Shown here one piece after another: positions 738 to 37,892 of a DNA stretch of 64,000 nt. This DNA is from Cellvibrio sp. 79. GTDB lineage: Bacteria > Pseudomonadota > Gammaproteobacteria > Pseudomonadales > Cellvibrionaceae. Location: assembly GCA_003056245.1 (NCBI GenBank), contig MVDH01000003.1, forward strand, positions 1 to 64,000, in the 5' to 3' direction. Made by a program: the position numbers and the translations under genes. The notes under the pieces were generated by a model that was not told the origin of the DNA, did not search any database, and saw nothing but the letters and a program-made list of their open reading frames with translations. How positions within the stretch are numbered: the stretch's first letter is position 1; each line of letters starts with the position of its first letter.

Positions 738-2540
738 TCACAACTGCACATCCTTACTAAACAAATCTTTCAACTCTTTACGACTTTGCTTCACCAGTAA
801 CGCCAGCTCTTTTGGATCTTTACTGATTGCAATTGCTTGATGTAACAAACTATGGTCATGCTCACGGAAAATATCGATAGCATGTTGCGATTGGCCTTCG
901 GTGTAACCGACTTCCGTTAGCGTGCGCATGGCAGCGCTGAGGCTGGATTCGTAAATTTCACGGATCGGATTTTCAACTCCCAATTCAGCCAATTGATATG
1001 CGTGCGCGCGATCACGTGCACGTACAATCAATGTGATGTGCGGAAAATGAGATTTTACAAGACGAACGACTGCCAGGGATGCTTCGATATTTACCAATGC
1101 CACTACCAACACTTTCGCATCACGGATACCAGCAGCTTCCAGTAATTCAATACGCGTGGCATCACCGTAATAACTTTGTACACCATAATTTTTCAGGAAC
1201 TCAATGTGTTCAGGATTTTTATCCAGTGCATTAAACGGAATATTACTGGCGGTGAGGATACGGCCAATAATTTGGCCGAAGCGGCCAAAGCCGGCGATGA
1301 TCACTTCTGCTTTGTGTGCATCCGGCTCTTCCAATTGTTTTAAAGCATCTGCAGCGTGCGCCGCTTCTTCACTGGCTTTTTCCTGCATGGTGCGCTTGCG
1401 CGTAAAGAATTCATGCAGGATCACCAACGGACTGGTCAATGCCATGGAAATACCCACTACTAGCACGACGTAATTGGAAATATCCTCCGGTAAAAATGTT
1501 GTTTGTTCGGCGGTGGACATAACGACAAACGCAAACTCACCACCTTGCGCAAGCATTACCCCAATCAACAAACCATCTTTGATGGGAAATTTGCGAACGC
1601 GCAACACCAAAGCCACGACGAGAATTTTAATCAGCATTAATGTCAACGCGAGCACCAGGATTAAAAGCGGCTCGGCAAACAATAACCGTAGATTTAACGA
1701 CATTCCCACGGCGATAAAAAATAATCCCAATAATAAACCTTTGAAGGGTTCAATATCGGCAGCCAATTGATGGCGGAAACTGGATTGGGCAAGCAACATA
1801 CCGGCGAGGAATGCTCCCATACTCATGGAGAAACCTACCAATTGCATTAAATAAGCAACACTCAAAACAATTAACAAACCAGCGGCGGTGAGAATTTCAC
1901 GACTACCGTATTTGGCAACAATTTGTAATAACGGATTAAAAATTCGCGCGCCGGCCAACAATAAAAATGCCACGGTACACAAGCCAATCCACCAAGGCAC
2001 ATGCACAGCTTCACTGGCAGAGGGCGACCAGGTAGCGAGCAACAATAAAATCGGGATAACTGCAAGATCCTGCAATAACAAAATTGAAAAACCTTTTCGA
2101 CCAATCGGCAAGCCCATAATTTTGTGCTCTTCCATCAATGGAATGGCAAATGCGGTAGATGAAAGCGCAAGTGCAAGGCCGATCATAAAACCTTGCTGCC
2201 AACTCAAATCCAGGAACACTGCAATTAAACCGGTAATCGCCAATGCGGTTAACAACATTTGTGCACCGCCTAACAAACCAATATCCAGCCGCATTTTCCA
2301 CAATTGTTGCGGATTTAATTCCAGGCCGATAACAAACAACAACAAGACAACACCTAACTCGGAAAACTGGAAGGCAGCTTCAGGCTGATAAATTAATCCC
2401 AGTTCATAAGGGCCAATAATTGCCCCGGCCACCAGATACCCCAAAATTGCGCCCAAACCAAGGCGACGGAATAAAGGCACGGCAATAGTAGCGGCCAACA
2501 AATAATAAATAGCGTGTAATAGTGTTTCGTGGTGTTCCAT
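738..2540 (-). CDS. Kef-type K+/H+ antiporter (CPA2 family) with RCK/TrkA-N domain
   Basis: This 600-residue inner-membrane protein has the KefB/KefC layout. About 380 residues form a dozen hydrophobic segments of the Na+/H+ exchanger fold. A cytosolic RCK_N domain follows, with the Rossmann motif GFGRFGQ and the downstream LDKNPEHIE and GDATR segments expected for nucleotide binding. The family exports K+ in exchange for H+ under electrophile or pH stress. The start is taken at MEHHETLLHA (2540), where the first membrane helix begins; an upstream in-frame extension to 2603 is basic and unlike the family. No KefF/KefG-type ancillary subunit is adjacent. KefB and KefC cannot be told apart from sequence alone. 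Confidence 0.9.
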   Translation of the reverse strand: MEHHETLLHAIYYLLAATIAVPLFRRLGLGAILGYLVAGAIIGPYELGLIYQPEAAFQFSELGVVLLLFVIGLELNPQQLWKMRLDIGLLGGAQMLLTALAITGLIAVFLDLSWQQGFMIGLALALSSTAFAIPLMEEHKIMGLPIGRKGFSILLLQDLAVIPILLLLATWSPSASEAVHVPWWIGLCTVAFLLLAGARIFNPLLQIVAKYGSREILTAAGLLIVLSVAYLMQLVGFSMSMGAFLAGMLLAQSSFRHQLAADIEPFKGLLLGLFFIAVGMSLNLRLLFAEPLLILVLALTLMLIKILVVALVLRVRKFPIKDGLLIGVMLAQGGEFAFVVMSTAEQTTFLPEDISNYVVLVVGISMALTSPLVILHEFFTRKRTMQEKASEEAAHAADALKQLEEPDAHKAEVIIAGFGRFGQIIGRILTASNIPFNALDKNPEHIEFLKNYGVQSYYGDATRIELLEAAGIRDAKVLVVALVNIEASLAVVRLVKSHFPHITLIVRARDRAHAYQLAELGVENPIREIYESSLSAAMRTLTEVGYTEGQSQHAIDIFREHDHSLLHQAIAISKDPKELALLVKQSRKELKDLFSKDVQL

Positions 2541-2685
2541 AAACTTTGCTCGACGTGACCTATCCGGAGAACGAAAATATTTTACACGCACAGGCGATAT
2601 CACATGACCCTACGTGAAAATTATTGGAGAATTTTTAAAGTTTTAATGAATTATTCGAGAGTTAACCAAACACAACGAATGAGAA

Positions 2686-2716
2686 TGAAGCTCCGCCAAG
2701 AAATGCCGGAGCTTCA
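2686..2716 (-). terminator. weak hairpin terminator
   Basis: Perfect 10-bp arms (TGAAGCTCCG at 2686-2695 and its complement at 2707-2716) sit 13 bases after the stop of the lipoprotein gene. The run after the stem on the minus strand is only T-rich, so termination strength is uncertain. Confidence 0.5.
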
Positions 2717-2728
2717 TACTAAACAGAG

Positions 2729-3613
2729 TTAGTAGCGAGCAACACTGACTTCGTAGCTACCGAGATTATCACTATTATCAGCGAGTGACGTTTTGTCATT
2801 GACGGCAAAAAATAATTCACCTGGGCGATCAGCGATTAAGAGGTAATTATCGCCTGCAACTAACCAGCGACCGTAAGCACCGATTTTAACCAGCAACGCC
2901 CCATGATTTGCAGTGGGTAACAAGCAAAGCTGACCACAAGACGCTATTCCTTTTGGCGTAGACAATGGATGGCCAATATTCGATGGCCACACATTCACAA
3001 GACCTGCCGCCTTGATTATCACACGTTGATTTACTGCAACATTGATGTGGGATGCAGTATTAAAACTTGTGCCTCTTACCACAAAGCGCCTGGGTTCAGG
3101 CCAGCCCAAAATATCATGGAATTTACGTTGGCTTTTGCTTACGCGGTAATGAGCAATGCCAATATGGGGCGGCTCATTAAATTGTTGGATGGAAATTTTT
3201 AATTCATTGACCCCCTCCTTGAACGGTGAATAATCCAGGTTTTTACATAACAATACCCTCTCAGGGGCGTCGACCTGCATGTACTGATGGATACACTCAT
3301 GAAACCATGCACTGACATCCTTATCATTAACCAATGCCTGGATTTTTAACGCAGCCGGACCACGTTGCGGCGCTAATGCCGGCGATGGATAAGGGGAAGG
3401 GTAAATCGGTTCAAAATCTGACCTATACAGTGACAAATGAATACTCAGTGGCAAATACACGGCAATATCAAGCGTTTGCGAATCCAGCAAATCAGCGTAC
3501 GCCGGTTCTATACGCAGTGCGGGCGAAGCCCCATCATCTTGCGCAATGGTACAACTGGCTACGGTTAACCCCGCAACAACCCATAAGAACGAAAACATTT
3601 TTTTAAAAGCCAT
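2729..3613 (-). CDS. putative lipoprotein, function unknown
   Basis: The 294-residue product starts at MAFKKMFSF, preceded by CAGGAT at good spacing. Its N-terminus is a lipoprotein signal: two Lys, a hydrophobic core, then a VASC lipobox with Cys21 as the predicted lipidation site. The rest has a mixed beta-rich look with several Cys residues (HECIHQ, CKNLDYS, SCGQLCLLP) that could form disulfides in the periplasm. No enzyme motif is recognised. It is a single gene between the Kef antiporter and the oppositely oriented DUF1428 cluster, with a hairpin after its stop. Confidence 0.6.
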   Translation of the reverse strand: MAFKKMFSFLWVVAGLTVASCTIAQDDGASPALRIEPAYADLLDSQTLDIAVYLPLSIHLSLYRSDFEPIYPSPYPSPALAPQRGPAALKIQALVNDKDVSAWFHECIHQYMQVDAPERVLLCKNLDYSPFKEGVNELKISIQQFNEPPHIGIAHYRVSKSQRKFHDILGWPEPRRFVVRGTSFNTASHINVAVNQRVIIKAAGLVNVWPSNIGHPLSTPKGIASCGQLCLLPTANHGALLVKIGAYGRWLVAGDNYLLIADRPGELFFAVNDKTSLADNSDNLGSYEVSVARY

Positions 3614-15600: not shown

Positions 15601-15942
15601 CCAGTCGGCTTTGCAATCGAATTCACCCAGGCAATTAGCGACAAAATATCCGTAGAGGACTTAAAATCCCTGTTGCTTTTGGAATCTTGGGTGTACCGTG
15701 ATGCACCGGATTATGGCTCGGACGAACTGGATCTTACTCAGGAGCCGATCAAATCAATAGCCGTCAGTGCTGATCGCAAAACAGTAACGATCGATTTGCC
15801 ATCACTCGCACAGAAACAGGTTCATCCACAACAGACGGCGCGTGTTTATCATATGCAGTTAAAAACAAAAACAGTATTCGAGAAAAATGCAGTGGAAAAA
15901 ATGGATGCGTATTACACGCTCTATAAGTTTCCCAAGAAGTAA
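12682..15942 (+). CDS. DUF1080-like / cytochrome c / sugar-dehydrogenase-like propeller fusion
   Basis: The 1086-residue exported protein is a multi-domain fusion. After a signal peptide (to about residue 24) comes a jelly-roll of DUF1080 type (about 40-195). A class I cytochrome c domain follows, with CNACH at 236-240 and a candidate Met ligand in LPIMPAFS near 313. Then comes a large beta-rich region (about 370-610), and a propeller resembling PQQ-dependent sugar dehydrogenases (about 615-960: SLGVLVEDKKG, the calcium-binding-like DNNGDGIADS, SGLRSPAGLGTAPDGRLWY). The layout recalls the heme-binding propeller proteins of Planctomycetes and Bacteroidetes. Predicted role: periplasmic oxidation of a carbohydrate, with electrons leaving through the heme. 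Whether PQQ is bound is not visible. Confidence 0.82.
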   Translation: MLFINQLRATLLAVACISAPQLAAQTTSQTTPAQNPAIFFKPNPDWKTAKAVSAVGNKLQLTAAKDGNILVLSSTGSGEHLNTTEHIGDSVLDTEFLVPEGSDAKLYLQGRYAVDLKNVNNEWQHLRAKFRAPRYNEASTKVDAALIVEVSINGEQVLLNDIRPAMSENPNVGWEGAAGITSFLVKKGQLALRNFNIAPADFSLITMPKTSGELTNEKELVDFVALGKETFESVGCNACHLTTKNDPGVSTGPNLFGLFKREPRDREIVEGGEGHRFTIKADRQYLHRSIRSATDQLAVAETGAKKGEAFLPIMPAFSAQVLSDLQIDAIGAYLATLNDLRDQGPTIKLLAQTGAEEYDPIADRLQLLVDDEVRIQRGPMVGVSGRAIHVGSPWGVNYSFDPRLLAITKIWQGGFLDMTGEFTNRGGKGLKMGYESREINFGGQEFLLAPLNEQGKLIDFSFKDAKFGDVETIKASLNSKEDHLQSVAEMDAQFLGYTRNSKQKNELPTFNYRVGKNALKIQTLIAANGDVKITVNGDINTAQQFSLNTQLLQNAAVSSGEISNGQWTLPAGSKSVTFTAKMQVAANVWHAKKSEFDYRKQPIKITESKADLPAGYRIESYYPPKDNFGREQLFEALGLSLTKDNTVVVATRTAGIWRMVKGQWHLFAEGTFDSLGVLVEDKKGLTVIAGQKAELTRIRDNNGDGIADSYETLFDAHSYHGNYHSYMHGPTRGSDGAYYISINLADGGDGSTYKAGGKYMGSAGGLAGWNIRVEPDGKSELWASGLRSPAGLGTAPDGRLWYSDNQGEYMGTSKVFVIEKDKFYGHPSGLVDLPGMTPDSPEITWDKVQNKRTNAIILLPHNRVANSPGNPAWITHKKFGPFAQQMLMGDQTQSNLLRIAFQTVDGVEQGSVMPFFDGLESGVMRPLFLKDGSLLLGQTGRGWQAKGGHVASLQRIIWDGKTIPPAITQMIATPVGFAIEFTQAISDKISVEDLKSLLLLESWVYRDAPDYGSDELDLTQEPIKSIAVSADRKTVTIDLPSLAQKQVHPQQTARVYHMQLKTKTVFEKNAVEKMDAYYTLYKFPKK

Positions 15943-15971
15943 AATTTATAAAACTCCCCAAGTGAGACGAA

Positions 15972-16077
15972 AATGGAAGCCGGCATTTGCTTCGGGACCG
16001 TGCGCAGCATGGATGCTGCGCCCGAGCCTACAGGGATGTATTCACGGCGTGTCCCGAAGTGAATGCCGGAGTCCATT
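15972..16077 (+). repeat. 106-bp palindromic cloverleaf element, copy A
   Basis: Imperfect 27-base outer arms (15972-15998 and 16051-16077) flank a 52-base core. Read on the minus strand, the core starts ACGCCGTGAA and holds two hairpins: TACA-TCCC-TGTA, and GCGCAGCA-TCCA-TGCTGCGC. The copy at 37787-37892 has the same 27+52+27 lengths in the opposite orientation, the same ACGCCGTGAA core start and the same hairpin positions, but different stem bases that still pair. It fills the gap between the cytochrome fusion and the BtuB-like receptor. No open reading frame is involved. Read on the plus strand, the loops become GGGA and TGGA. Confidence 0.85.
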
Positions 16078-16124
16078 TCTCTCGCAGCCCAGTAGATTTA
16101 GTTAATTACGATTTAAGGCTCGCA

Positions 16125-17987
16125 ATGAAAAATTTCCGCTTCACTCCATTATTCCTCGCACTACTTTCTACAACCAGTTTTGCTGCAACTGAAGAACTTA
16201 TCGTAACCGGCAGCTACAACCCGGTCACCAACGAACAACTTTCTTCTTCAGTATCTGTAATCAATAAAGAACAATTGTTGCAATTAAGTAGCAACAATGT
16301 CGTTGATGCATTGCGCCAGATTCCCAGCTTATGGGTTGAAGAACAAGGCGGCCCCGGTGGCGTTACCTCTATTAACCTGCGCGGCTCTGAAGCAAACCAC
16401 ACATTGGTTTTATTGGATGGCGTGCAATTAAATGATCCGACCAACACACGCGGTGGCGCATTTGATTTAAAGGGAATCAATATTGAATCAATTGAGCGCA
16501 TCGAAATTATTCGCGGCGCACAATCTGCAATTTATGGTTCCGATGCGCTCGCCGGTGTTATTCATATCATTACTCAAACACCGGGAAAAAAATCCACCAC
16601 CATAAATGCCAGCATTGGCAATGACGATTATGCCAGCACCGGTGTAGCTACCAGCGGCAGCATTAATAATGTTGGTTATGCATTTAATGTACAAACCACC
16701 GATGCTGGTGAACCTGTTCCCGGTAGTACCGCAAAAAATACTGAATTCTCCAGCCGTTTGAATTGGAAACAGGAAAATCACAGTATCAACTTCAGCTACC
16801 GTTATTTTGATGGTGAACGCACCAGCTTCCCCGAACAAAGTGGCGGCCCTGAATTTGCGCAGCAACCGGATCTGGATACCAGCGAATACACCGATCAAAG
16901 TGCAGCTCTCGGCTGGAATTTCCAAATCAATGAAATGTGGCAAAGCAAAACCACAGCGAGCTGGTATCAGCGCGATGAAGACACAGCATCGCCCGGTATT
17001 TTGCCATTCGATGCCGTTCCCCCTAATGGCGCGGTGATTGATTTTACGCGCACACAATTCAGCTGGGTTAACACCCTGGGCGACCAACAAAAACTCTGGG
17101 CGAATATCGGTGTTGAAACCAAGAAAGAAGATGGAACCAGCCAGGGCTATTTATTTTCACCGGAAATATTTCCGTTAGATTTTGCGTTGGAGCGCAAAAT
17201 TAATAGCGCCTTTATCAATATTAATACTTATGTAACCCCCGAGTGGTTAATACAAGCCAGCGTTCGTCGCGATGACCCTGACCATTCAGACGCAAATGAT
17301 TCAGGCCATATCGGCACACGTTATAAAATCAATGACTCATTATCCTGGTTTGCCAACTGGGGCCAGGGATTCAAATTGCCCAGCTTTTTTGCGTTGGGTC
17401 ATCCCTTTGTTGGCAACGCCGACTTATTGGAAGAAACAGTAACGACTGCCGATACCGGTTTTGAATATACGCAAAAAGATTTCACTTCACGCGTGAGTAT
17501 TTTCAATCACAAATACAATAACCTGATCGATTTCGATAATGACTCTGGTAAAAACGTAAATCGCCCGGCAGTCAAAACTCGCGGTGTAGAGGCGGAAGTG
17601 AGCTGGCAATTGCCCAAAAATTTGCAATGGCGAGTGCACGGTAGTTATGCAGATATCGATATGCCCAACTCGGAAACCCATTTGCTGGGGCGTCCGCAAG
17701 CGACTTATGGAACAGCTCTTCACTACATCGCGAATGAAGCCTGGTCATTTAACCTGAATTATTTGCGCGTGGACGAACGTTTTGCCGTGAGCCGTTATAC
17801 AGGCGAAGGAGTGGAGCAAACCCTGGATGCATACAATCGCTTTGATGCAAATGCGCAATGGCAAATCAACAAGCTCACTCAAGTGGGATTGTCATTGGAA
17901 AATTTGACCGATGAAAATTACTACACAGATATTGGTTTCCCTGCAGCGGGCACCAGTGCGAAGTTGAATTTGAAAATTAGTTTTTAA
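16125..17987 (+). CDS. TonB-dependent outer-membrane receptor, BtuB-like
   Basis: The 620-residue receptor starts at MKNFRFTPLF; upstream in-frame codons fall inside the repeat element and are not coding. It has a signal peptide (cleavage near SFAATEE), a TonB-box-like EELIVTGSY, a full plug domain (INLRGSEANHTLVLLDGVQL, IERIEIIRGAQSAIYGSDAL) and a 22-strand-type barrel ending in Phe (LNLKISF). Plug and size resemble the cobalamin receptor BtuB. However, no cobalamin riboswitch is present upstream, where the repeat element lies, and the neighbour is a sugar-oxidation protein, so the ligand is left open. A terminator follows directly. Confidence 0.87.
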   Translation: MKNFRFTPLFLALLSTTSFAATEELIVTGSYNPVTNEQLSSSVSVINKEQLLQLSSNNVVDALRQIPSLWVEEQGGPGGVTSINLRGSEANHTLVLLDGVQLNDPTNTRGGAFDLKGINIESIERIEIIRGAQSAIYGSDALAGVIHIITQTPGKKSTTINASIGNDDYASTGVATSGSINNVGYAFNVQTTDAGEPVPGSTAKNTEFSSRLNWKQENHSINFSYRYFDGERTSFPEQSGGPEFAQQPDLDTSEYTDQSAALGWNFQINEMWQSKTTASWYQRDEDTASPGILPFDAVPPNGAVIDFTRTQFSWVNTLGDQQKLWANIGVETKKEDGTSQGYLFSPEIFPLDFALERKINSAFININTYVTPEWLIQASVRRDDPDHSDANDSGHIGTRYKINDSLSWFANWGQGFKLPSFFALGHPFVGNADLLEETVTTADTGFEYTQKDFTSRVSIFNHKYNNLIDFDNDSGKNVNRPAVKTRGVEAEVSWQLPKNLQWRVHGSYADIDMPNSETHLLGRPQATYGTALHYIANEAWSFNLNYLRVDERFAVSRYTGEGVEQTLDAYNRFDANAQWQINKLTQVGLSLENLTDENYYTDIGFPAAGTSAKLNLKISF

Positions 17988-36066: not shown

Positions 36067-37743
36067 ATGAAGGTCATACACAATTTATCATTTGCAATCG
36101 CGGCGGCAGCAGCAAGTTTTTCGCACGCTAACCCGTCGCACATCCCAAGCGTTACCTTCAAGCAATTTATTTATGAAGGTAAGGACACGGTTTTCACTTC
36201 TCCATTAAAAGCCGATGAATATCGCAACCCAATTCTCGCTGGCTTTTACCCTGACCCAAGTATTACCCGCGCGGGTGATGATTATTATTTGGTGAATTCT
36301 TCATTTTCTTATTCGCCCGGCGTTCCTATTTTCCACAGCAAGGATCTGGTGAATTGGAAATCACTGGGGCACGTATTAACAACACCAAAACAATTACCGC
36401 TTCAGCAGCAACAAACATCGCGCGGCATTTACGCTCCAACAATTCGCCATCACAACGGTGTGTTCTACATGATCACTACGCTCGTTGATGTGCGTGGTAA
36501 TTTTCTGGTAACAGCAACTGATCCTGCTGGCCCTTGGTCCGAACCGGTTTTATTACCAGAAATTGGCGGTATAGATCCGGATATCTTTTTTGATGACGAT
36601 GGCAAAACCTATATCGCCCACAACGATGGGCCGATAGGGGAACCGCTGTATAACGGACACCGTGCAATCTGGTTGTGGGAATTCGATCTAAAAACCAAAA
36701 CGGTGATTAAAAACTCCGGCCGTGTAATTGTTAACGGCGGAACCGATATTTCCCAAAAACCCATTTGGATCGAAGGTCCGCATATTTACAAAATCAATGG
36801 TTGGTATTATTTGCTCTGCGCTGAAGGCGGCACAGGCTACGATCACTCCGCGGTGATTTTTCGCAGCAAAAGTTTGCGCGAACCTTTTGTGCCTTATGAA
36901 AAAAATCCGATTCTGACTCAACGCGATTTAAATAAAGATCGCACCAACCCAATTACCACGGCTGGCCATGCCGATTTTATACAAACCAAAGAAGGCGATT
37001 GGTGGGCGGTATTTCTCGCCACTCGCTCCTACGATAAAACGCTCTACAACACCGGCAGGGAAACATTTTTATTACCTGTTACCTGGAAGGACGGTTGGCC
37101 GGTAATTCTGGAGCAAGGGCAGCCAATACCTTACCAACACAAAAAGCCTGCGATTAAAGCAACAACAACGAATCCGGATCAGCTCACCGGCAACTTTATT
37201 CTTACCGATAATTTCTCCAATAAAACATTGGGATTTGAATGGGTAAGTTTGCGTACAGCTGATTCGCCGTTTTATCAATTCACTAAATCCGGCATTGAAT
37301 TACAGGCACTGAATGTAAAGCTGGATAGCCTGGAGCAACCGGCATTTTTAGGTCGTCGCCAACAGCATACGCATTACCGTGCCAGTACCGAATTTGAAAT
37401 TCCCCAAAAGAAAACCTCGGCGGGGATTGTGGCGTTGCAAGGTGAAACAGCGCACTACTATTTTGGCGTTCGTCAACAGAAAAAAGGAATCGAGTTATTT
37501 ATCGAGCAAGCCAATAAAGCGACGCCTGACATTATTTATCAGCAATTGGTTAATGATTTGGGAAAAACGGCCCGTTTGAATATTGAAGGCGATGCCGGAA
37601 TAATCAGTTTTTACTACACCAATAAAAAAGGTGAACGGAAAACAGTGCTGGAAAATGCGGATGCAAAAATCCTTAGCACTGAAATAGCGGGCGGATTTGT
37701 CGGCACACTGTTGGGAATGCATGCAAGATCTGAAAGTAAATAA
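36067..37743 (+). CDS. GH43 beta-xylosidase/alpha-L-arabinofuranosidase with C-terminal beta-sandwich
   Basis: The 558-residue secreted enzyme has a signal peptide (cleavage near SFSHANP) and a five-bladed GH43 propeller. Catalytic residues are visible: Asp63 in FYPDPSIT (base), Asp170 in GIDPDIFFDDDG, and Glu236 in WIEGPHIYK (acid). After about residue 360 comes a concanavalin-like sandwich (LTDNFSNKTLGFEW to the end), as in the two-domain xylosidases such as XynB-type and GH43 subfamily 12 enzymes. Substrate is xylo- or arabinoxylo-oligosaccharides. The start at 36067 follows AAGAAGAG. The gene is separated from GH115 by a palindromic repeat element. Confidence 0.92.
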   Translation: MKVIHNLSFAIAAAAASFSHANPSHIPSVTFKQFIYEGKDTVFTSPLKADEYRNPILAGFYPDPSITRAGDDYYLVNSSFSYSPGVPIFHSKDLVNWKSLGHVLTTPKQLPLQQQQTSRGIYAPTIRHHNGVFYMITTLVDVRGNFLVTATDPAGPWSEPVLLPEIGGIDPDIFFDDDGKTYIAHNDGPIGEPLYNGHRAIWLWEFDLKTKTVIKNSGRVIVNGGTDISQKPIWIEGPHIYKINGWYYLLCAEGGTGYDHSAVIFRSKSLREPFVPYEKNPILTQRDLNKDRTNPITTAGHADFIQTKEGDWWAVFLATRSYDKTLYNTGRETFLLPVTWKDGWPVILEQGQPIPYQHKKPAIKATTTNPDQLTGNFILTDNFSNKTLGFEWVSLRTADSPFYQFTKSGIELQALNVKLDSLEQPAFLGRRQQHTHYRASTEFEIPQKKTSAGIVALQGETAHYYFGVRQQKKGIELFIEQANKATPDIIYQQLVNDLGKTARLNIEGDAGIISFYYTNKKGERKTVLENADAKILSTEIAGGFVGTLLGMHARSESK

Positions 37744-37786: not shown

Positions 37787-37892
37787 TCATAAGTCCCATA
37801 GGAAGTTCAGGACACGCCGTGAACCCATCCATGGGGGCTTGTCGTCGACGTCCCTGTCGCCGACAGTCCTGAACTTCCTATGGGACTTATGA
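37787..37892. repeat. 106-bp palindromic cloverleaf element, copy B
   Basis: Perfect 27-base outer arms (37787-37813 and 37866-37892) flank a 52-base core that starts ACGCCGTGAA on the plus strand. The core holds the hairpin CCCA-TCCA-TGGG (37824-37835) and a second, longer hairpin with a TCCC loop (37840-37865). It is the same element as 15972-16077, inverted. The outer-arm sequences of the two copies are largely unrelated apart from the inner TTCnGGAC, yet each pairs with its partner. It sits in the 205-base gap between the GH43 and GH115 genes, both on the plus strand. Confidence 0.88.

Follow-up and report, generated by a model that had tools for sequence, protein, structure and literature searches.

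The window analysed here, a stretch of 64,000 nucleotides from Cellvibrio sp. 79 (contig MVDH01000003.1), carries two palindromes, referred to below as copies A and B (Table 1). Copy A is preceded by an ORF ending at 15942 and followed by a gene with a probable start at 16126, and copy B is located between an ORF ending at 37743 and an ORF that starts at 37880 or downstream. The mechanically called ORF starts at 37880 and 15987 fall inside the palindromes, and the true starts of these two ORFs are probably downstream of those positions. The original prediction, made from the letters of the window, described two elements of identical dimensions in opposite orientations, and this description holds, with 52-nt cores and arms of 27 nt (B) and 28 nt (A). 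When read in the same sense, on the minus strand for A and on the plus strand for B, both cores begin with ACGCCGTGAA as had been proposed. A core pattern search allowing up to three mismatches gave exactly two matches in the window and none in 100 shuffles, and model R1 matched copy A at 15985-16064 on the minus strand (90.1 bits, E 2.3e-18) and copy B at 37800-37879 on the plus strand (92.3 bits, E 6.5e-19). In the following, the strand on which the core reads in this sense is called the core strand, and the opposite, AYGGAY-bearing strand is called the constrained strand; the latter, which is the folded one, is the plus strand of the window in copy A and the minus strand in copy B.

Table 1. 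Features of copies A and B (window positions) and of the insertion sequence of plasmid pDCA (positions in locus L393)
Feature	Position	Strand	Basis or detail
Copy A, low-coordinate outer arm	15971..15998		inverted repeat I2
Copy A, 52-nt core in the sense of the original prediction	15999..16050	-	core pattern and model R1
Copy A, hairpin 1	16029..16040	-	sequence; plus-strand loop C-AGGGAT-G (16032-16037)
Copy A, hairpin 2	15999..16024	-	sequence; plus-strand loop C-ATGGAT-G (16009-16014)
Copy A, high-coordinate outer arm	16051..16078		inverted repeat
Copy B, outer arm	37787..37813		inverted repeat I1; 27/27 complementary to its partner
Copy B, 52-nt core in the sense of the original prediction	37814..37865	+	core pattern and model R1
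Copy B, hairpin 1	37824..37835	+	sequence; loop ATCCAT (37827-37832), ATGGAT on minus
Copy B, hairpin 2	37840..37865	+	sequence; loop GTCCCT (37850-37855), AGGGAC on minus
Copy B, second outer arm	37866..37892		inverted repeat
pDCA ISAs1-family IS	1437-3008		TIR CAGGGCAATCGCACTA at 1437 and 3008; 10-bp duplication ACCCCAACCT outside

Comparison of the two copies bears out most of the pairing that had been claimed for them. The change from TACA/TGTA to CCCA/TGGG in hairpin 1 is correct. For hairpin 2, at least five stem pairs were said to differ and still pair: five do so in both copies (columns 47-78, 51-75, 54-72, 57-69 and 58-68 of alignment A1, rows L001 and L002), but pairing is incomplete, with pair 50-76 broken in copy A and pair 55-71 broken in copy B. 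The outer arms of copy A bear no relation to those of copy B, yet each set pairs internally, as predicted, with 100% complementarity over 27 nt in copy B and 86% over 28 nt in copy A according to the inverted-repeat search.

Copies A and B are members of a dispersed family of hairpins of about 106 bp in Gammaproteobacteria. The question whether the genome holds these two copies only is answered in the negative, since the covariance model matches 12 sites in the same genome; the core pattern finds eight with at most two mismatches and a further two with three mismatches, which look like chance matches. Within the genus, copies were detected by pattern and model in 20 of 21 genomes, with 3-96 model matches each when the first 150 candidates per genome were scored. 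The sole exception is G020, which has no copy by either pattern or model, showing the element to be dispensable; this genome still has one Y1_Tnp match. A single Stenotrophomonas genome (S. maltophilia SJTL3) contains 89 exact cores. A scan of contigs returned at least 118 stretches and, among the 80 matches listed, all that carry a name at class level or lower belong to what we take to be gammaproteobacterial taxa. Exact matches occur in 13 of 398 Pseudomonadota genomes, all of them from the class to which Cellvibrio belongs (13 of its about 137 genomes and none of about 261 others, counted by hand). Three stretches match among viral contigs, and blastn with a 62-nt query gave three weak records in plasmids and no record in E. 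coli or phages, the short query making the latter weak evidence. A search of the open-licence literature did not find the dispersed family named, which is weak evidence of novelty.

Across 188 copies at 158 loci, core length peaks at 52-53 nt and most arms measure 24-31 bp, while beyond the arm end complementarity drops to background within a few bases (279 copies). The bases GCCGTRAA before hairpin 1 are conserved. In many copies the arms resemble those of no other copy and nevertheless pair; at one locus (L058), two copies about 300 bp apart have cores that differ at the first base only and arms that are unrelated. Within a subfamily that includes copy A, recognisably the same arms recur at unrelated loci. 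Covariation and compensated changes support the claim that it is the structure that is kept, with the constraint narrowed to one strand as described below. RNAalifold predicted 26 pairs from the 82 copies of alignment A1 (82 of 85 chosen copies, with L127, L130 and L146 left out), of which 24 show two-sided changes. For a 30-pair structure on the same copies, the covariation score is 0.702 compared to 0.187 +/- 0.008 after shuffling and at most 0.148 when partners are slid. Two-sided changes affect 25 of the 30 pairs compared to 23.1 after shuffling, a value reached by 10 of 500 shuffles, and further pair types run the opposite way (75 vs 81.6 shuffled). Paired cells amount to 90.2% vs 61.5% shuffled, a share that is inflated by relatedness and by the choice of well-paired copies, the figure being drawn from loci with arms of at least 18. 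The concern that stems might decay elsewhere without compensation is not borne out: other copies carry compensated changes, and within four arm clusters (133 arms) there are 267 compensated doubles, 52 one-sided changes and 11 unpaired doubles. Predicted folding energies range from -52.6 to -84.8 kcal/mol in 180-nt windows around eight copies of the same genome.

The mispairs left in the arms reveal on which strand folding matters. In 279 copies (arm score of at least 8 and at most three core substitutions; 7012 pairs), the core strand displays 285 A.C mismatches and 31 G.T mismatches, together with 160 C.C/C.T/T.C, 19 G.A/A.G/G.G, 11 T.T and eight A.A. The constrained strand hence keeps 285 G.U, 110 G.A and 50 G.G, with G.U making up only about 4% of arm pairs. 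We see no reason why the selection of copies by arm score should bias this asymmetry. It persists in the non-redundant set of 97 copies with mutually dissimilar arms (A.C 105 vs G.T 14, p 2e-18) and in its genus subset of 21 (25 vs 0), it is present along the whole arm, and it is found in every gene context, whichever strand would be transcribed by read-through (A.C:G.T of 76:6, 80:8, 31:5 and 46:8, and 52:4 inside long ORFs). Concomitantly, polarised one-sided changes on the core strand (133 arms, four clusters) comprise 20 G>A, 13 T>C, eight G>T and seven G>C, while A>C and A>G occur twice each and C>T not at all; seen from the opposite strand, the changes that predominate result in a mispair that contains G. 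Neither deamination nor a strand-dependent mutation bias of a simple kind would yield such a spectrum: a bias of this sort would need to leave each G on one strand untouched while increasing A>G, so that selection for folding of the constrained strand is the simpler explanation. As judged from the arm sequences, the constraint is shown to act on one strand alone, the one opposite to the sense in which the cores were originally read. The palindromes are thus very probably a family of strand-specific hairpins, and it is the strand specificity of the constraint that is new here.

On the constrained strand, both loops read C-ANGGAN-G in 227 of 279 copies (scored as C.TCC.TG motifs on the core strand), and in 212 of these 227 the two loops are spaced by 23 nt; hairpin 2 lay outside the search pattern. 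The loops had been said to stay TCCC or TCCA on the core strand, which does not hold, since the fourth base can be any and the base before TCC varies as well. Both N positions of the loops are thus variable, and the core loops are otherwise conserved. RTCCRT in hairpin 1, that is a strict AYGGAY on the opposite strand, is found in 125 of 279 copies. Each of the column pairs 56-70 and 55-71 has core-strand C.U/U.C oppositions, corresponding to G.A on the other strand, in 12 of 82 rows, and the tandem GA form is present in 24 of 279 copies. A high-affinity Csr/Rsm site has been described as an ANGGAX hexaloop placed directly on a stem with N and X variable (PMC4005645), and a CsrA/RsmA consensus as (A/U)CANGGANG(U/A) (PMC6849547). 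Such a hexaloop directly on a stem is what the palindromes display, at the level of sequence. Two Stenotrophomonas loci (L354 and L360, G028) have an insertion that begins beside the hairpin 1 TCC loop of the second palindrome and carries an apparent transposase orfA reading frame, and further insertions lie within hairpins at L363 and L366; insertions seem to favour the palindrome loops.

Gene contexts were classified from longest-ORF guesses; copies inside such ORFs (77), at edges (34) or remote from any gene (24) were set aside, which left 91 tandem, 30 convergent and 23 divergent contexts. Copies in tandem contexts lie a median of 38 bp past the upstream stop, and 52 of them are in the core sense and 39 in the antisense, so that there is no orientation bias. 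An orientation bias as proof of an RNA role was therefore rejected, none being found among the classified copies. Together with the context-independent asymmetry, this makes RNA transcribed from the neighbouring genes hard to invoke. At loci of the genus, about 50-60 nt from the core and about 20-25 bp outside the arms, there is an enrichment of T5 runs to the left and of A5 runs to the right.

Orthologous sites document how the element changes. At the site of copy A, the element is present in eight of nine aligned genomes and absent in G017, and its position is conserved between species, with identities of 74-81% over the query. The core points one way in G000, G001, G006, G007 and G014 and the other way in G003, G010 and G016; on this comparison copy A is inverted in place, with three of eight carrier genomes showing the other direction. 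The sequence AAATTACC occurs once in the element-free G017 and flanks the element on both sides in G001 and G006, where an additional 13-18 bp are present. G017 is thereby a candidate empty site, at which the 8-bp direct repeat is not an arm; insertion with duplication and deletion between repeats would look alike, and chance could account for the repeat since the two flanks have an 8-mer in common in 45 of 272 copies. At the site of copy B, G016 has lost most of the core while its outer arms remain paired, with compensated differences relative to G000, and G003 has a different short palindrome. At a Stenotrophomonas site (L270) compared in five genomes with 94-97% identical flanks, the outer arm is kept and the inner arm plus core are exchanged as a symmetric block; G029 represents a deletion at this site. 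Unique arms may arise by compensated drift together with tip replacement. The alternative that new arms are an inverted copy of the target was rejected, no site showing such an origin.

Copies are frequently paired. In S. maltophilia SJTL3, 40 of the 89 exact copies are arranged in 20 pairs at distances within 400 bp, the plus copy always preceding the minus copy (hand count), and among all fetched loci the adjacent pairs less than 600 bp apart number 51 +-, 10 -+, nine ++ and four --. In G115, a +/- pair 985 bp apart (L379:1474-2664) encloses a DUF4357 (PF14267) gene, like a cargo cassette. Direct tandem arrays were also seen, with six copies of period about 227 bp (G230:C1:94446-95607) and four copies of period about 180 bp (L048:3160-3720). 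In G021 (L269-L287), pairs seem nested in larger imperfect palindromes of GCAACAGC runs and GGGGTCAGATCC palindromes, and whole intergenic regions look like multi-layer palindromes.

A mobilisation of the REP/RAYT or IS200 kind had been suggested for the element, but none of 34 Y1 transposase matches (PF01797) adjoins a copy. This holds for 0 of 25 matches in the genus and for 0 of nine in three Stenotrophomonas/Xanthomonas genomes, the interval inspected being about 1.5 kb in both cases or, near contig ends, shorter; eight of the latter nine have other inverted repeats on both sides. An ISAs1-like transposase was found in none of 29 genomes, in a search that had no positive control. On plasmid pDCA (NZ_KU922118.1), an ISAs1-family transposase (NF033564) is flanked by two palindromes with unrelated arms, which lie inside the terminal inverted repeats (TIRs) of the insertion sequence (IS), 45 bp from each end and in + and - orientation. 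Shared TIRs and a target duplication with an autonomous element, by which a MITE is recognised, were found for this IS. The element can thus ride on an IS. This IS adjoins a haloalkane dehalogenase gene, and the plasmid is conjugative and alphaproteobacterial. Palindromes are absent from six other ISAs1-like regions, taken from 869 plasmid records with a match. ISAs1 is not claimed as a general mobiliser, given one case and 0 of 29 genomes.

What the constrained strand is for is the question on which the evidence divides. In the reading that we favour over the others, to which we give a little under even probability, the hairpin would present two CsrA/RsmA sites as RNA, and binding of CsrA/RsmA would be the reason why it is kept. 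In such a mechanism the folded constrained strand would act as RNA and present two high-affinity GGA loops, on which one CsrA/RsmA dimer would dock per element, either as a decoy or as a docking site in the carrier transcript, while the stem of free sequence would only hold the two loops together and shield the ends; as DNA, the same element would spread, invert and swap tips as a non-autonomous repeat by means of an enzyme other than a linked Y1/RAYT transposase. This reading is supported by the covariation, by the strand asymmetry of mismatches and of one-sided changes, by the match of the loops to the published ANGGAX rule, by the predicted CsrA binding of TwoAYGGAY, by the RF01731 matches of four copies, all on the constrained strand, and by the gammaproteobacterial range, which fits. 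Against it count the inversion in place, the copy-free G020 and the independence of orientation, a real objection, as well as an RF01731 score below gathering, the further pair types, which are fewer than after shuffling, and the two copies on an alphaproteobacterial plasmid. Its main rival, which we hold to be rather unlikely in its own right, is a mobile single-stranded DNA hairpin in which the AYGGAY strand would be the folded substrate of a structure-specific recombinase or transposase (attC- or REP-like); non-folding copies would not be copied or would be overwritten, so that arms stay paired in any orientation. In favour of this rival are an asymmetry that is independent of gene orientation and runs along the whole arm, the subfamily found with the same arms at unrelated loci, the tip exchanges between orthologous copies and the palindromes near either end of an ISAs1-family IS. 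In DNA, G.T, G.A and G.G mismatches are more stable than A.C, C.T and C.C, and the kept G.T, G.A and G.G follow this order of stability, as do the rare A.C, C.T and C.C; since G.A and G.G are kept as well as G.U, and G.U is so scarce, the pattern looks more like single-stranded DNA than RNA. The DNA hairpin therefore explains orientation independence and the tolerance of G.A and G.G better than the CsrA/RsmA RNA does, but it would make the exact CsrA loop a matter of coincidence. No associated recombinase was found for it, with Y1 at 0 of 34 and ISAs1-like at 0 of 29 genomes (no positive control); site A (G017) and the IS show direct repeats of 8-10 bp as in DDE-type insertion and not as in recombination of single-stranded DNA, and at site A, which is fixed across species, dead copies should decay on both strands alike. 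A further reading, in which a selfish or domesticated DNA repeat would carry a ready-made two-site CsrA/RsmA decoy and folding of one strand would be selected at any landing site and in any orientation, is conceivable though on balance unlikely.

The remaining explanations fare worse. That the palindromes are REP-type elements mobilised by a RAYT or another Y1 (HUH) transposase would agree with their palindromic, mostly intergenic and dispersed nature, with the frequent inverted pairs that recall BIMEs and with the Y1 matches in 17 of 21 genomes of the genus; it is nevertheless very improbable, as 0 of 25 and 0 of nine Y1 matches adjoin a copy and copy-rich genomes exist that lack any Y1 match, G001, G002, G004 and G005 having no Y1_Tnp match and 12, 8, 21 and 15 cores (at most one mismatch), with 77 model matches in G004 (first 150 candidates scored). 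Template switching homogenises arms and inverts spacers (PMC8604942), and a neutral palindrome kept symmetric solely by such quasipalindrome correction would account for the inversion in place at site A, for the nearly coreless site B of G016 with its compensated arms and for double changes exceeding single ones by 5:1. A strand-blind process cannot yield a ratio of 285:31, or no C>T against 20 G>A, and the core loops stay conserved around variable N positions; we thus regard template switching as a sole cause as improbable and hard to hold, while it may have an additional role. A transcription barrier or stabiliser of RNA ends, the strong hairpin blocking read-through or 3' decay where a gene or an IS ends, receives some support from the short distance to the upstream stop in tandem contexts (median 38 bp), from the copies at both ends of an IS and from the low predicted energies. 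Contexts of 91/30/23 show no marked 3'-end preference and such a role leaves the conserved loops and the strand rule unexplained, and we give it little credence.

If the reading as a decoy-carrying repeat is true, genomes would acquire tens of portable docking hairpins whose stem of free sequence is always re-paired, and mobile DNA would be a source of new nodes in Csr/Rsm networks; provided that CsrA/RsmA binds, a mobile repeat would have handed its sites across Gammaproteobacteria. The strand test based on G- versus C-containing mispairs in the arms can be applied to any palindromic repeat family, and with this simple count one can tell which strand is under selection.

The family connects to entries that have been filed separately: fragments that are TwoAYGGAY-like on one strand and Ysr224 on the other are here brought together as a single dispersed family. 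No Rfam gathering score was reached in the window or in six further loci. RF01731 (TwoAYGGAY) matches copy B on the minus, constrained strand with 38.8 bits, below its gathering score of 43, and gave no match to copy A up to E 1; three further copies score 33.4, 33.0 and 32.6 bits on the constrained strand, amounting to four copies in four of 29 loci scanned by E-value with differing limits, all on that strand. Sub-threshold matches to microRNA models indicate that long hairpins alone draw scores. TwoAYGGAY is predicted to bind CsrA; one of its stems contains tandem GA, and its outer stem is poorly conserved (PMC4333381). The palindromes resemble it in their two adjacent AYGGAY-type terminal hairpins on one strand, in the poorly conserved outer stem, in the tandem GA of one stem and in range, TwoAYGGAY taxa including Gammaproteobacteria. 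They differ in that their loops are ANGGAN and not always AYGGAY, that tandem GA is found in a minority, that the palindrome stem of about 27 bp is often unlike any other, and that they form a dispersed, inverting repeat. Likeness to the Yersinia sRNA Ysr224 (RF02770) comes from the core ACGCCGUAAAUACAUCCAUGUAGGCUCG contained in its model, which scores 126.5 bits with a Yersinia similis copy (gathering 70) and, below gathering, 25.5 bits with copy A, 22.9 bits with copy B and 23-47 bits with the listed Cellvibrio and Stenotrophomonas copies on the core strand; unlike the constrained strand of the palindromes, the Ysr224 model lies on the core strand, and Rfam treats it as one sRNA.

As short intergenic palindromes that often occur in inverted pairs, the elements are also reminiscent of REP, BIME and REPIN sequences, and are set apart from REP/RAYT and TIRYT/TIRtron systems by a three-helix apex, 27-bp free arms and no linked Y1 gene. 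S. maltophilia has TIRYT TIR families, one of which is described as self-complementary (Di Nocera 2013, PMC3733652). Identity of this TIR with the palindromes is not supported, since a Y1 gene of G021 has GGGGTCAGATCC repeats without the palindromes studied here; the GGGGTCAGATCC repeat flanking that gene is an element different from the twin-hairpin palindromes. Finally, ANGGA hairpin loops are shared with CsrA/RsmA sponge RNAs of the CsrB/RsmZ type, from which the palindromes are distinguished by having two sites each, many dispersed copies and an unbiased orientation.
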